DNA of 29,477 nt, taken from a virus. Made by a program: the position numbers and the translations under genes. Every line of letters starts with the position of its first letter. Position 1 is the first letter of the stretch. The notes under the pieces were generated by a model. It saw nothing but the letters and a program-made list of their open reading frames with translations, searched no databases and was not told the DNA's origin. Location of the stretch: positions 1-29,477 of IMG/VR virus record IMGVR_UViG_3300034520_000106; one strand, written 5' to 3'. Positions 1 through 17,843 of this stretch are shown here, one piece after another.

Positions 1-294
1 CGTAGCGAACAAAAAGAAATAAGGACTTATATTTTCCCCGGCAGGCCTGATAACTTCTCCAGCAGGTGGGCGGAGTTAAGGGCAAATAATAAACTGCCAC
101 CTATACGTTTTCACGACTTAAGACATTATCATGCATCATGGCTTTACGCTCAAAACATACCGGACCAATATGCTGCTGAGAGATTGGGCCATGATGTGCA
201 GGTTCTTAAAACAATATATCAACATTTGCACTTGGAAAAACGAAAAAAGCTGGACAACAAAATTGTCCAGCTGCAAAAAAAGAACGCCCGTTAA
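1..294 (+). CDS. int: Tyrosine recombinase (integrase), C-terminal part
   Basis: The 3' end of a site-specific tyrosine recombinase; the 5' part lies outside the window. The visible 97 residues hold the C-terminal catalytic half: the HDLRH box (H38, R41), the LGH box (H64) and the nucleophile Tyr in TIYQHL (Y73), numbered from the first visible codon. These are three of the conserved catalytic elements of the XerC/lambda-Int family, so the active site looks intact here. It would cut and rejoin DNA at the attachment core about 90 bp downstream. It is the only recognised gene on the plus strand, convergent with the late operon, the usual place for int next to attP. It ends at a strong terminator. 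Confidence 0.95.
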   Translation, partial: RSEQKEIRTYIFPGRPDNFSSRWAELRANNKLPPIRFHDLRHYHASWLYAQNIPDQYAAERLGHDVQVLKTIYQHLHLEKRKKLDNKIVQLQKKNAR

Positions 295-311
295 AAGGAC
301 GTTCTTTTTTT
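275..311 (+). terminator. Rho-independent terminator of the integrase gene
   Basis: A perfect 12-bp inverted repeat (275-286 with 300-311) encloses a 13-nt loop. Its right arm ends in a run of T residues. The left arm overlaps the last integrase codons, and the stop codon (292-294) lies in the loop. This should end int transcription before the attachment site. Confidence 0.85.
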
Positions 312-321
312 ATCAAAAATT

Positions 322-344
322 TTTGTTTGGCATTTGTTTGGCAT
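322..344 (+). repeat. attP left-arm repeats (2 x GTTTGGCA)
   Basis: The 12-mer TTTGTTTGGCAT occurs twice at an 11-bp period (322-333 and 333-344, sharing one base), about one helical turn apart. The 8-bp core GTTTGGCA (325-332, 336-343) is repeated in the same orientation twice more on the other side of the tRNA core. Paired direct repeats flanking a crossover core are typical of arm-type integrase binding sites. The binding role is inferred. Confidence 0.65.
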
Positions 345-383
345 AACCCACTTTTTCATGCCTAACAAAAACCTCGGAAGCCT

Positions 384-442
384 TGGTGCGGCTGAAGAGA
401 CTTGAACTCCCACGGGCTTGCACCCACTAGAACCTGAATCTA
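384..442 (-). other. attP: Attachment core: 3' half of tRNA-Leu(CAG)
   Basis: Read on the minus strand this is the 3' part of a class II tRNA-Leu. It has the 3' side of the anticodon stem-loop with loop TTCAGGT (anticodon CAG), a long variable arm with a GGG/CCC stem, a T-arm with loop TTCAAGT, the acceptor strand CAGCCGC, discriminator A and CCA (384-386). The 5' half (D-arm, 5' acceptor strand) is absent to the right of 442, so it is not a functional tRNA gene. A 3' tRNA half carried by a temperate phage is the usual identity segment that restores the host gene on integration. Because the lysis end of the phage lies on one side and int on the other, it is read as attP rather than attL or attR. 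Confidence 0.85.
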
Positions 443-796
443 ATATGTTGCTTTTCAGTCAACTTTTGTAAAAATTCAGTATTACCAAGGCTTTGTTAAC
501 TCTTTATTTTCTTGAAAAATGTTGCGTAATAAGCAAGTGTTATTATTATTTTTAATGCCGTTAAAATATATTTTAATGTTTTGTTTGGCAAAAAGTTTGG
601 CAGAAAACCATGGTATCACTATTTTGTCACTACATGTAGCAAGGGGGAAAACGGCTTCTCAGAATGACCTAGAATCGACGAAAAATAGGGCGGTAAGGTG
701 TTTGTATACCCCCTTGCAAAAAGAAAAAAGCCGACCCGTTTGAGCCAGCCGTTTTCATGCGTTATATTGCAACAAAAATATTCCATAGGAACAAAA
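443..796. other. Non-coding right arm of attP
   Basis: About 350 bp with no convincing gene: short open frames have no ribosome binding site and no family resemblance. It is AT-rich near the core. It holds two GTTTGGCA copies (583-590, 595-602) and a 9-bp inverted repeat (639-647 with 709-717, GCAAGGGGG). Arm sites for integrase, excisionase or a bending protein would be expected here. Only the repeats are directly visible. Confidence 0.5.
583..602 (+). repeat. attP right-arm repeats (2 x GTTTGGCA)
   Basis: Two direct copies of GTTTGGCA (583-590 and 595-602, 12-bp period) in the same orientation as the two copies left of the tRNA core. The matching pairs on both sides suggest that one integrase serves both arms. 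This supports a single intact attP, or a tandem junction of the same phage, rather than an unrelated neighbour. Confidence 0.65.
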
Positions 797-821
797 TAAA
801 AAAGGGAGGCCCACGCCTCCC
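797..821 (-). terminator. Terminator of the late operon
   Basis: On the minus strand, GGGAGGC and GCCTCCC (stem 804-810 with 815-821, 4-nt loop) are followed by a T-rich run (797-803). It lies about 80 bp after the endolysin stop and is the natural end of the long right-to-left operon. Confidence 0.85.
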
Positions 822-847
822 TAAGTTTGCGCACACTATATATAAGG

Positions 848-873
848 CACTCAGCCGAAATTTCGGCCCAGTG
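848..873. repeat. 26-bp imperfect palindrome after the endolysin
   Basis: The perfect 14-bp palindrome GCCGAAATTTCGGC (854-867) is extended by CACT (848-851) and AGTG (870-873). It lies between the endolysin stop and the terminator. It may be an extra 3' hairpin or a protein-binding site; the sequence alone does not decide. Confidence 0.5.
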
Positions 874-900
874 TTTAAGGTGGTATTCTCCTGGGCAGCA

Positions 901-1470
901 TCAACCAACTACCCCCTTCTGGGCCATCCTCCTCAACATGGCCCATATTTCTTTCCGGGTCGCTGGCCTGTCCGGGTCACTCCCGTCGCTGATGCCGTTT
1001 TCAATAGCCCATTGACGGTCAGCTTCAAAAGGATCCTTTAGCGCTATAGGACCCACCTTGTTTTCTATCCCGAGATAATCAGCAGGATTGATGTCCTCAC
1101 GATTTTGCCAGTTGCCTTTCCTCACTTCAAAATGCAGATGTGGGCCTGTGCTTCTGCCTGTACTCCCTTGTAGCCCTATTCCGTGTCCGGGCCCAAGTAT
1201 CATGCCTGCCTGTACAAGCACACTTGCAAGGTGGGCATATATAATCTCGTGACCATCCTGGTGGCGTACTATCACATAGTTTCCCCAGCCATCCGGGTCC
1301 GCCCCCTTCCCCGGGGCATATTTTGCGACTACGACCACACCGGGACCCACAGAATATATGTACTTGTCACTTTCGCCCGCCACCAGGTCGATACCGGTAT
1401 GATATCCCTTTTTGTACTTTCCCGGGCGACCATATTCTTGCGTGACACGTCCGTTTTTAACCGGCAACAT
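901..1470 (-). CDS. Endolysin: M23 peptidase with SLH-like tail
   Basis: Peptidoglycan-degrading lysis enzyme of 189 residues. Residues about 1-125 form a lysostaphin-type M23 zinc metallopeptidase: HTGID (H24, D28), H80 in YAHL, and HLHFE (H111, H113). M23 enzymes cut peptide cross-bridges or stem peptides. Residues about 145-185, with WAIENGISDGSDPDRPATRK, resemble an SLH-like wall-targeting segment common in Bacillota phage lysins. There is no signal peptide, so release would depend on the holin encoded just upstream (3-bp gap). The start has a good AGAGGTG site. It is the last gene of the late operon. Confidence 0.9.
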   Translation of the reverse strand: MLPVKNGRVTQEYGRPGKYKKGYHTGIDLVAGESDKYIYSVGPGVVVVAKYAPGKGADPDGWGNYVIVRHQDGHEIIYAHLASVLVQAGMILGPGHGIGLQGSTGRSTGPHLHFEVRKGNWQNREDINPADYLGIENKVGPIALKDPFEADRQWAIENGISDGSDPDRPATRKEIWAMLRRMAQKGVVG

Positions 1471-1473
1471 TAT

Positions 1474-1896
1474 TTACACCTCTTTTTTCTGTGGTTGAGC
1501 CCTACCTTTTAGCACTTCTACAGCTTGCTTAAGTATCTCCGGAATGGGCAATCCTACACGGCCAGCGTTTTCTATGATACTAAGGAGTTCATTCGCAATA
1601 TAAAAGAATATGGCAGCGTCCATGAGAAAATTGCCGTTCCCGATAGCTGTATCGGCCAGATGAGCAACGGCCACAATGACAAAAATAAATACCTTTTTGG
1701 CGATACCTCTCATACCCACGGAACTGGAGAGCTTGCCTTCGATCCCACTGGCCAACACGCCGGTAATATAATCGATAACCACAAAAGCCAGCAGGATTTG
1801 CAGCAAGATGCTCCACCCCCCGAATAAGTATGATATGCAACCGCCTCCGGCTGCTACGCAGAGTTTAAAGATTTCCCCGATGTTAAATCGATCCAT
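1474..1896 (-). CDS. Phage holin (phi29/Cp-1 type, holin_4 family)
   Basis: A 140-residue membrane protein directly upstream of the endolysin. It has hydrophobic segments at about 28-49, 67-86 and 90-108, the motif FVVIDYITGVLASG typical of phage_holin_4 (TcdE/UtxA-like) proteins, and a polar, lysine-rich C-terminus. Holins form membrane lesions that release the endolysin or trigger lysis. The ribosome binding site is AAGGAG. Family assignment is by pattern; position and topology agree with it. Confidence 0.9.
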   Translation of the reverse strand: MDRFNIGEIFKLCVAAGGGCISYLFGGWSILLQILLAFVVIDYITGVLASGIEGKLSSSVGMRGIAKKVFIFVIVAVAHLADTAIGNGNFLMDAAIFFYIANELLSIIENAGRVGLPIPEILKQAVEVLKGRAQPQKKEV

Positions 1897-13537: not shown

Positions 13538-14721
13538 TCTCCATCACCTCCCTGTAAAAGTTTCTTCTGGTCGCCAATCATGCCGAGAGGAATGTAATTT
13601 TCCAGGATGACCAATTCTGACAGCCCTTCTTTAGGCGATAAACCAAGCCAATCCCGTACCTCATTTCCAGTCATAATGCCGCGCACATACATATTACTTC
13701 CGACTTCCGCAAGCTCTTTCAGGTCGTAAGCATACAGGCTGCGCGGATTAAATTTGAAGTACAGGTCTGGACTGTAAAGCAGCTTCCTGGTTAACTCCTG
13801 CTCTATTCCTTTAGCAATAGGCAGGATAGTAGAGTTAATAAAACTGTTATACTCATCCTTCTTGTAATCACCTACGCCCAAGAAAAAAGCAGGCACCCCA
13901 AAGATACCCGCCACTGTTCGTTTATCGATTTGTACTGCGTCATTGATTGCCAGATCATTCAGGCTCAGCGGTTTCACCTGCTCTACTTTCACCAGCTCAG
14001 CTGGGATCACCCATGGCTTGCCGCCACCTGTTTCAGAAATATATTTCCTCAGTATCGCATCCCGGCCCTCCTCGCTGGCCAGTTCCTCCGTCATGGCATC
14101 GACGGCCACAATGATTGACGGCTTCCATTTGTCGCTCATAAAACTGTTCTTAGTCTTTGTTGCCTGCTTGAGATTATCAATGATATCTTTTAGTACCACC
14201 CGATATCCTGTCCCGAGATATGGTCTCTCAGGGTCTGGATTAACAATAAAATGGAGCACTTCATCCGGATTATATGTTTTGCCCTGGTAGATAACCTGAT
14301 AACCATCAGGAGTATCAAAAAAAGTTATCCCTGAAGGCTTAAGCGGAATGAGTTCATCTATTAACCCGTCTTTTATTCTGGGGTAGACTACACTGTTTCC
14401 CTTGCCATCTAGCAGCATTGTGAAAACAATCCAATATACCCAAGCCTTACGCGTCATAAGGCTATATGGATTAATGTCCAGCTTCCGCGCCAGCTCATTT
14501 TTTACCCGAATATCGCCATCCTCGGTGTTCTGCATTAAATGGATAGTCATTGAGCTTATTAAATCGGCAATCTTATGGACCGCCATACGCACTTCCGGAT
14601 TATCACTCAATCTAGTATACCCTGGAATACAAAGCGTATCGTAGGCATCTGTAGTTAGAAACCACCCCAAAGGCTCCGCTCTTGTTTTTCTTTTTCGCCA
14701 AAATCTATCTAGGATCCCCAC
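13534..14721 (-). CDS. Portal protein (HK97 family)
   Basis: 395 residues with a GTG start behind GGGAGG. It has HK97-portal features: [20 protein letters not shown] and [15 protein letters not shown] near the N-terminus, then [20 protein letters not shown] and [20 protein letters not shown], ending in the helical [12 protein letters not shown] typical of the C-terminal domain. It forms the dodecameric ring at the packaging vertex. It is placed between terL and the protease, as usual. Confidence 0.95.
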
Positions 14722-14725
14722 TTCT

Positions 14726-16450
14726 TCAGCCTCCCTTCAGCCACTCTTCAGCTTTTGATGATTTTTCCATGTTTTCAAGCATTCTTACAACCGCAAATAC
14801 ATCGGCGTCAAAAATATCAATTCTTTGAGTTGGCATAATCTTTTCGTACTGTATCATGTCATCGGTCTTTTCAATCCCATGTACGTTTTGAACACAATAC
14901 TCATATGCGGTAGAATGTAGATAATAAAGCTTCCCGTCTTTGGCGGCTTTTTCTATATGCCGGAAGCCTTCCGACTTCTTGTAGAAATACTGTGGCTGAT
15001 CAACTATCCGAAAACCTTTTTGTTTCATTCCCAGGAAAAACTTCCTGCCAAATTTGCGGTCAAATCCGACCTCTTTAATCCTGAACCCGAGCTTTTTCAT
15101 TTCTAAAAACCAATTGATTATGTCGGTTTCATTGACTGTCGGGGTGTTACACATAGTCAGCCAGCCATCATCTTTCCAGCCGAACAACGGGATATTGTCT
15201 TCTTCTGCTTTCTGAGCTGCAGCTACAATCGGAAACCAGGCATGAGTTATCGAAATATCCACACCTTTATACTGTCCGTGTAAGGCCGCCGCCGTTAGGT
15301 CGTGTTTCTTTGAGAGGTCAGCACCGCCAAACCAGTGAATTGGTAATCTGGCCAGTTCCTCCAATGTCCAATTATATTTTCTGTCGGACGCCTTGAACTC
15401 GTCGATGTTGAAGTAGGCCTTCATGGCCGCCGTGTAGACGTTCAGCGACTTGGCGAAGAAGTCTTTCCGTTGCTGAGGGTCGTTCTGGGCCTGGAGAGCA
15501 TCATTCATGATGTCATCAGGCCGGATGGTCACGCCGTAGTTCGGATTAGCTTTCTCGTGCTGGACCTGGTTGGTGTAGTCTACCTCGCCAGTGTCCGGGT
15601 CCTCATCGGCCTTGCAGATAAACACGAAATACTGTTCATCCTTCACCGTCCCGTCCAGGATTTTCTTGCAATACTGAAGCCGCTGGTAACAAAAGCTGGT
15701 CATATCGTCGCCAGCCGTCGTAATACCAATCATCAGCTTATTTGAATAGGCCTTCATGGCCTCCTTGATGATGTTGTACTGCTTTGGTGTCTTGTAGGCA
15801 TGAATCTCATCAGCAATTCCCACGTTGCAGTTGAGCGAATCCTGCTTGTCCGGGTTGGCCGCCAAGGCCTTAATGTAAATAGAACCATCCCCGAGATCGC
15901 CGCTGATGCTGTGTTCCTGGTTGTTATCCAAGATGCGGAAGTTTTCTTCCTCCCCGAGCTGGCGCAAGTTGAACAAGATGAAATTAAAACTCTGTAGCGA
16001 CTGCTCCAGGACAGCACTGGTGATATAGATTTTGCTGCCTGACCTCCGCTGCAACAACGCCAAAGCCCAGGCCAGCGCAGCCACAAGTCTGGTCTTACCA
16101 TTTTTTCTGGGTATAAAAATAAAGGCCTCTTTATATCGCCTTAGTTGTGTGCCTTTGCGGTAGAATGCAAGCAGGTTGTAAATAATGAACTTCTGCCACG
16201 GCTCAAGTAAAAACGGCTCCCCGCGCAACGGAGTGCCGTCTAGTTTTTCACCCTGGTCATGAACGAAGGTTTTTTCGATGATCCCAATGACGAACTCAGC
16301 GTCTTTTGGATTGAATTCGTATTCCGGGTTGTTTAAGTCGTCCAAAAACCGTTGGCAAGCCTGAATCAATTCCCGACATGCAATTTTTCGCCCTTCAACT
16401 ATACTTTTGGCATACTCTATTACCAAATCATAGTTCCTATGTTTTTTCAC
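14726..16450 (-). CDS. terL: Terminase large subunit
   Basis: 574 residues of the Terminase_1 (HK97/YmfN-like) family. The N-terminal ATPase has Walker A PRKNGKT (114-120) and a Walker B GIADEIH (D214, E215). The C-terminal RNase H-like nuclease shows D378 (GADLSKKHD) and D548/D550 (IDIFDADVF) as likely metal ligands. It pumps DNA into the prohead and cuts it. The start is GTG, overlapping the end of terS. The type, with P27-like terS and a neighbouring HNH gene, is usual for cos-type packaging, but no cos site was identified. Confidence 0.95.
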
Positions 16451-17203: not shown

Positions 17204-17668
17204 TCATATCCCTAATAATTGTTTCTTCTTTTTATCAAATTCCTCCTGTGTTATAATTCCTTGATCCAGCAATTCCTTAAATTTTTTTATTTCTTCTGCT
17301 GCACTGGCTTGTACCGGCGTTCCTGCTACTGTAGCCGTATTTTGTAGTTCTTCAATTTTAGCCTTAATCTGTTCCACAAGCTGGTTATGTTTTTTCGCAA
17401 ACATTACAGTATTTTCGTCTTGCGTAGCATTAAATAACCCTTTCGTATTTTCATTACCACCAGCTAAAGTAAATTGGATATACCCGTTTGTAAATGCAGT
17501 ACCCGGCTTTACCTGTATGCTTGATATCTGCCTCAAATAAATCGTCTTATCCCCTTTGAAAAAACCTTGGGTCACCTTTGCTAGTACGCCTTTTCGCTTA
17601 ATAATGAGTTTATCCGGATACAATTCCAATTGTCCGTTTACACCATCCAACCTAAATAAAATACTCAT
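17204..17668 (-). CDS. DUF4429-like protein with C-terminal SHOCT domain
   Basis: 154 residues from the ATG at 17668, preceded by GGGAGG. Residues about 1-90 are a beta-rich DUF4429/PH-like fold (MSILFRLDGVNGQLELYPDK, IYLRQISSIQVKPGTAFTNG). Residues about 125-154 are a SHOCT module (EEIKKFKELLDQGIITQEEF, ending in KKKKQLLGI). This pairing is widespread in bacteria; its role is unknown, with SHOCT thought to aid oligomerisation. The gene is not part of the packaging set. It lies between two terminators, which marks it as a possible lysogenic-conversion (moron) gene. Confidence 0.85.
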   Translation of the reverse strand: MSILFRLDGVNGQLELYPDKLIIKRKGVLAKVTQGFFKGDKTIYLRQISSIQVKPGTAFTNGYIQFTLAGGNENTKGLFNATQDENTVMFAKKHNQLVEQIKAKIEELQNTATVAGTPVQASAAEEIKKFKELLDQGIITQEEFDKKKKQLLGI

Positions 17669-17679
17669 TGCCGTCCTCC

Positions 17680-17742
17680 CTATACATTTTTTCTGATAAC
17701 TTCGGCAAAAGGAAGCATTTTCCTTGACAAAAATTCCGACAT
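17680..17742 (-). CDS. Putative 20-residue leader peptide
   Basis: A very short frame, MSEFLSRKMLPFAEVIRKNV, starting at ATG behind a near-perfect GGAGGTG. Its stop codon overlaps the GGGAGG of the DUF4429/SHOCT gene, an arrangement suited to translational coupling. No homologue is recognised. It could be a regulatory leader or merely a remnant. Confidence 0.45.
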   Translation of the reverse strand: MSEFLSRKMLPFAEVIRKNV

Positions 17743-17813
17743 ATTTTTCACCTCCGCTGCCCCGCCCCCGCAGCATATTGAGGTGTACCTTTCCCGCCTT
17801 TCGGCCACCCATG

Positions 17814-17843
17814 AAAAAAGGCACCTGCTCCTGCAAGTGCCTT
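17814..17843 (-). terminator. Terminator after the sigma-like regulator
   Basis: On the minus strand AAGGCAC and GTGCCTT (17843-17837 with 17824-17818) enclose a 12-nt loop and are followed by six T residues (17819-17814). It lies about 35 bp after the regulator stop and probably ends the early transcript. Confidence 0.85.

Follow-up and report, generated by a model that had tools for sequence, protein, structure and literature searches.

Intasomes of the lambda and KplE1 type combine a heterobivalent integrase with core-type and arm-type sites; arm-type sites are expected of heterobivalent integrases in general, and in KplE1 the target is a tRNA gene (PMC2951348). The viral DNA analysed here (the window, all 29,477 bp of IMG/VR record IMGVR_UViG_3300034520_000106) appears to follow the same plan, with a different placement of the integrase gene (int). 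In KplE1 the intS promoter overlaps attL and intS reads away from the site (PMC2951348), whereas in the window the 3' end of int faces the phage attachment site, attP.

Two integrated elements are the closest known systems. A prophage in the genome G051 (contigs L122, L123, L124 and L141) shares with the window collinear early and replication genes, an integrase (62% identity), an M23 endolysin (67%) and the att module (72%, DNA); unlike the window it is integrated, at a tRNA-Leu(CAA) gene, its TerL is only 26% identical, its att module is inverted and its arm motif is GTCTGGCA. An element in the genome G077 (L228) encodes an integrase of the same family (49% identical to that of the G051 prophage) and resembles the window in having a near arm of two direct and one inverted repeat and a tRNA CCA end that faces int, but it is integrated at tRNA-Pro(GGG) and carries the arm motif AATGCCCAAC.

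Anatomy of the attachment region

The phage is in all likelihood temperate and tailed, of the HK97-fold kind, with a host of Peptococcaceae type, and the window covers most of its genome. The record is classed as linear and, on the question of circularity raised by the preliminary description, does not close on itself, there being no terminal repeat. The central observation of that description, a lysis end and an integrase end joined across a tRNA-Leu(CAG) core, was borne out by HMM matches of the integrase, endolysin and holin and by a 59/59 match of the core (Table 1). To judge from its sequence, the left 0.6 kb very probably constitutes an intact attP of a lambda-type heterobivalent tyrosine recombinase; it is an ordinary, well-preserved example of an anatomy already seen in integrase relatives.

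Table 1. Features around the attachment site and at the right contig edge, in window coordinates
Feature	Position	Strand	Basis
Tyrosine integrase, C-terminal 97 aa	1..294	+	PF00589, phrog_1; 62% identity to G051 prophage int; N-terminus off contig
Hairpin and T tail at end of int (possible bidirectional terminator)	275..311	.	Inverted repeat I2
Near arm, two direct arm-type repeats TTTGTTTGGCA	322..343 (322-332, 333-343)	+	Aligned in relatives
Third near-arm repeat TTTGTTAGGCA, inverted, 1 mismatch	359..369	-	Inverted copy likewise present in att sites of G051, G077 and L148
att core, 59-bp tRNA-Leu(CAG) 3' fragment, anticodon stem to CCA	384..442	-	59/59 to intact tRNA-Leu(CAG) of L110 and of G051 L143
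Spacer of far (P) arm	443..579	.	Homologous to G051 spacer; blastn 72%, window 318-590 vs L122 9814-10087
Far arm, two direct arm-type repeats, GTTTGGCA at 583-590 and 595-602	580..602	+	Repeat search
Late-side flank kept beside att site in G051 prophage	634..753	.	78% to L141 6098-6213
Probable late operon terminator	803..822	-	–
M23 endopeptidase (endolysin), last late gene	901..1470	-	PF01551 E=2e-23; 67% to G051 prophage
Holin (Phage_holin_4_1)	1474..1896	-	PF05105 E=5e-44
Early gene at right contig edge	29258..29476	-	91% to L122 13431-13634; homologue ~3.0 kb from int position in G051 prophage

ARAGORN calls no tRNA in the window, so the tRNA gene there is truncated. Across about 85,000 species genomes the exact 59-bp core has a single match, at the intact tRNA-Leu(CAG) of a Peptococcaceae metagenome-assembled genome (L110), and a second intact tRNA-Leu(CAG) identical to the core lies in the related 3.8-Mb genome G051 (L143); an intact gene, which the preliminary description had wanted looked for in the host, is thus present in two genomes, at 59/59 identity. 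When a phage collection was searched with the attP region, the sole match was 62 bp long and lay over the tRNA fragment. An inverted repeat around the core, ACCAAGGCTT (378-396 and 475-493), was considered as a pair of additional core-type sites and dropped, being inconsistent among relatives. Three unrelated integrase and arm systems occur on the same tRNA-Leu(CAG) within one host family, with arm motifs TTAGCCCA (L143/L142), GTTGGGGACAA (L110) and GTTTGGCA (window).

The 8-mer GTTTGGCA occurs five times in 29.5 kb, and four of the five copies surround the core, at 325 and 336 on the int side and at 583 and 595 beyond it. In none of 20,000 dinucleotide shuffles did the two flanks of the core share such a close pair, and none of 100 whole-window shuffles reproduced the paired arrangement. 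Integrase relatives in IMG/VR have the same succession of int stop, repeat pair, tRNA 3' fragment and second repeat pair some 210-270 bp away, with the motifs TGTTTGACA (L005), TGTTGGGCAT (L006, L008), TGTGCAACAT (L010), TGTTCCAG (L013), TGTGCACTTTT (L017) and TGTGCGTT (L018). Among integrases about 40-60% identical (L004-L022, L148, L161, L228, L122) the arm motif varies while layout and spacing remain similar, and this diversity could amount to a specificity code read by the N-terminal part of the integrase. When the paired near arm was searched for exactly, only an unrelated tandem repeat matched, with no related integrase beside it. The far-arm spacer also contains, at 471-493, the motif TTCAGTATTACCAAGGCTT, possibly a site for an accessory protein; G051 has a close copy of it, and strings resembling CAGTAATATCAA occur in several relatives.

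On the int side, the open reading frame at 1-294 (+) runs off the contig edge and encodes a catalytic C-terminus (PF00589, E=7.6e-9; phrog_1, E=8e-17) with HxxR, LGHD and the Y box all present, which places a tyrosine recombinase catalytic domain directly beside the att site; in full-length relatives the N-terminal region is conserved as well. No excisionase (Xis) was identified in the window. Since int is cut by the contig edge, its linkage to the window phage is one that we infer. An integrase foreign to this phage family, named in the preliminary description as the contrary finding, is not what was found, the integrase of the G051 prophage being homologous at the identity given above.

On the other side, the minus strand carries from position 900 on the M23 endopeptidase, the holin and then the full late operon. 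In the four relatives tested (L005, L010, L013, L022) an amidase-type endolysin lies 0.7-2.6 kb past the int stop. Between the holin and the tail genes, a late gene at 1933-2739 encodes an SLH domain fused to a trypsin-like protease; what seems to be another trypsin-like protease gene is found in the L142 prophage (14064-15497). A further phage gene, at 17204-17836 between an HNH endonuclease and the replication genes, encodes DUF4429 and SHOCT domains.

The core, arms and gene order, and their comparison with integrated relatives, would fit the following course of binding and recombination by an active integrase. The catalytic domain of Int would bind the 59-bp core, a sequence that attP has in common with the host tRNA-Leu(CAG) gene's 3' part, while its N-terminal domain, off the contig, would bind the GTTTGGCA arm sites. 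Of these sites the short near arm has three, two of them direct and one inverted, and the long far arm has two. With the arms bound, attP would be folded into an intasome able to capture attB. Once integrated, the phage would have a restored tRNA gene beside int and the near arm at one end, and at the late end the far arm together with a 3' tRNA fragment.

Integrated relatives and the circular map

In G051 the tRNA-Leu(CAG) gene is occupied by a prophage unrelated to the window phage. At one end of it (L143), int, one arm set and the intact tRNA-Leu(CAG) lie together; at the opposite end, 39 kb away (L142), are a 58-bp tRNA fragment and the other arm pair. In G077 (L228), an integrase of the window family likewise adjoins near arms and an intact tRNA-Pro. 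These layouts show the two arm sets apart, and integration thus separates them; the presence of both around one truncated core in the window accordingly points to attP or to a tandem junction of identical sequence. The position of int on the 3' side of the tRNA, on which the preliminary description had relied, is present in the window but is not diagnostic alone, since an intact tRNA also faces int in the integrated elements L143 and L228. The diagnostic feature is the replacement of the 5' half of the tRNA by phage late DNA that carries the second arm pair.

The G051 prophage at tRNA-Leu(CAA) and the window are collinear over the stretch that runs in the window from 29.3 to about 17.9 kb, with protein identities of 91% for the gene at the right contig edge, 63% for DNA polymerase A, 56% for a VapE-like protein, 54% for DUF2815 and 50% for DUF2800. 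At its outer left end lies int (62% identical), with an S24 repressor and a Bro-N protein next to it, and near the other end its endolysin (67%), beside the intact tRNA-Leu(CAA). Because homologous int and endolysin genes occupy the two opposite ends of this prophage, the window reads as a circular permutation of its map, in agreement with the earlier proposal that the order late genes, core, int is that of the circular phage. By comparison with L122 (10455 to 13431), about 3.0 kb of immunity region would be absent from the window, for an estimated genome of about 32.5 kb. The head genes differ (TerL, 26%), and most phages closest by terminase carry recombinases other than that of the window; for these reasons the genome is a mosaic and int a mobile module, and terminase relatives were of little help on the att question. 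A viral scan with single-sequence tags returned no relatives of the G051 integrase, and an alignment-based scan returned mostly known loci again.

A degenerate near arm (L122 9814-9880) flanks the int-end att site of the G051 prophage on the outer, host side. It is probably the remnant of an earlier integration, with successive integrations at tRNA-Leu(CAA). Core, degenerate near arms and far arms thus stand together in the G051 chromosome (L122 9814-10087), and the degenerate near arm makes an attP-like site within a chromosome possible.

Unintegrated phage DNA as the probable source, and its alternatives

Since both phage ends meet in the window, the contig derives either from unintegrated DNA, be it circular, concatemeric or from virions, or from copies of one phage in tandem. 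The earlier list of an excised, circular or tandem form is upheld by the two arm pairs around one core and has to be extended by packaged linear virion DNA with an internal attP; circular, concatemeric, packaged linear and tandem forms cannot be separated from the sequence alone.

A tandem lysogen, in which two identical or nearly identical phages lie head to tail at tRNA-Leu(CAG) and the succession of late end, core and int is their internal junction, would have the same sequence as attP at that junction. Stacking at one leucine tRNA has a precedent in the host family, in the residual second near arm of the G051 prophage at tRNA-Leu(CAA), but the window att module is undegraded, unlike that residual arm. 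As the record contains no host gene over its 29.5 kb, and as the same attP layout is common in related viral contigs, as expected of excised or virion DNA, we regard such a lysogen as unlikely.

Still less credible is a tandem of different elements, with the late end supplied by the window phage and the integrase by another element in the same tRNA gene. The truncation of int by the contig edge leaves room for it, and unrelated integrases do use the same tRNA-Leu(CAG) in L110 (GTTGGGGACAA arms) and L143 (TTAGCCCA arms); yet the late-side and int-side arms of the window share one 8-mer, though motifs differ among the relatives of its integrase, and this integrase belongs to the family of that of the collinear G051 prophage. 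Chimeric assembly, with the shared tRNA sequence as the point of joining, is the most improbable, for although an identical 59-bp core could in principle mislead an assembler, neither the 5' half of the host tRNA nor any host flank is present and both flanks are phage DNA with matching arm sites at family-typical spacing.

Polarity of the attachment cassette

If the window contains an intact attP, as we consider very likely, its orientation can be compared with that in its relatives. The att module (318-590) aligns with L122 9814-10087 at 72% on the same strand, while the strands of int and of the late genes are reversed between the two loci: in the window the near arm, on the CCA side, is next to int, and in G051 the far arm is, with the near arm at the late end (L141 6616-6680). 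Orientation was counted over the 12 family attPs in which both arm sets could be scored. In all 12 the core strand and the arm-repeat strand flip together, the CCA end pointing toward int in seven and away from it in five; under independence this has a probability of 1/792, though these are related sequences. On the tree of integrases, where placement of the window's partial integrase (26% of columns) is weak, orientation needs seven changes (5-7 in bootstrap trees), no fewer than with shuffled labels, and well-supported branches force at least two. L006 and L228 make up a second clear pair, in which both have tRNA-Pro(GGG) as target and the motif AATGCCCAAC, with opposite placement.

It seems moderately probable that in this integrase family attP behaves as a cassette whose internal polarity is fixed (near arm, CCA end of the core, far arm) and which has repeatedly been turned around with respect to int and the late genes. 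On this reading the window phage and its collinear counterpart in G051 form an inverted pair. The resulting arrangements of tRNA and integrase genes have been classified (PMC2951348). Our search of the open literature found no paper describing inversion of an attP cassette, queries on orientation returning mainly Drosophila transgenesis, a result that falls short of showing absence.

If inversion is correct, each event would bring the opposite prophage end (int for lysis, or lysis for int) next to the restored tRNA gene, and would also change the direction of the prophage on the chromosome. The inversions suggest that orientation and tRNA context can be switched with the recombination chemistry unchanged. 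For the window phage, the locus fixes a Peptococcaceae-type host and tRNA-Leu(CAG) as host family and target. More broadly, a complete attP with its arm sites, whose motif can be compared over some 15 related phages, offers material on how the integrase N-terminus reads arm DNA.
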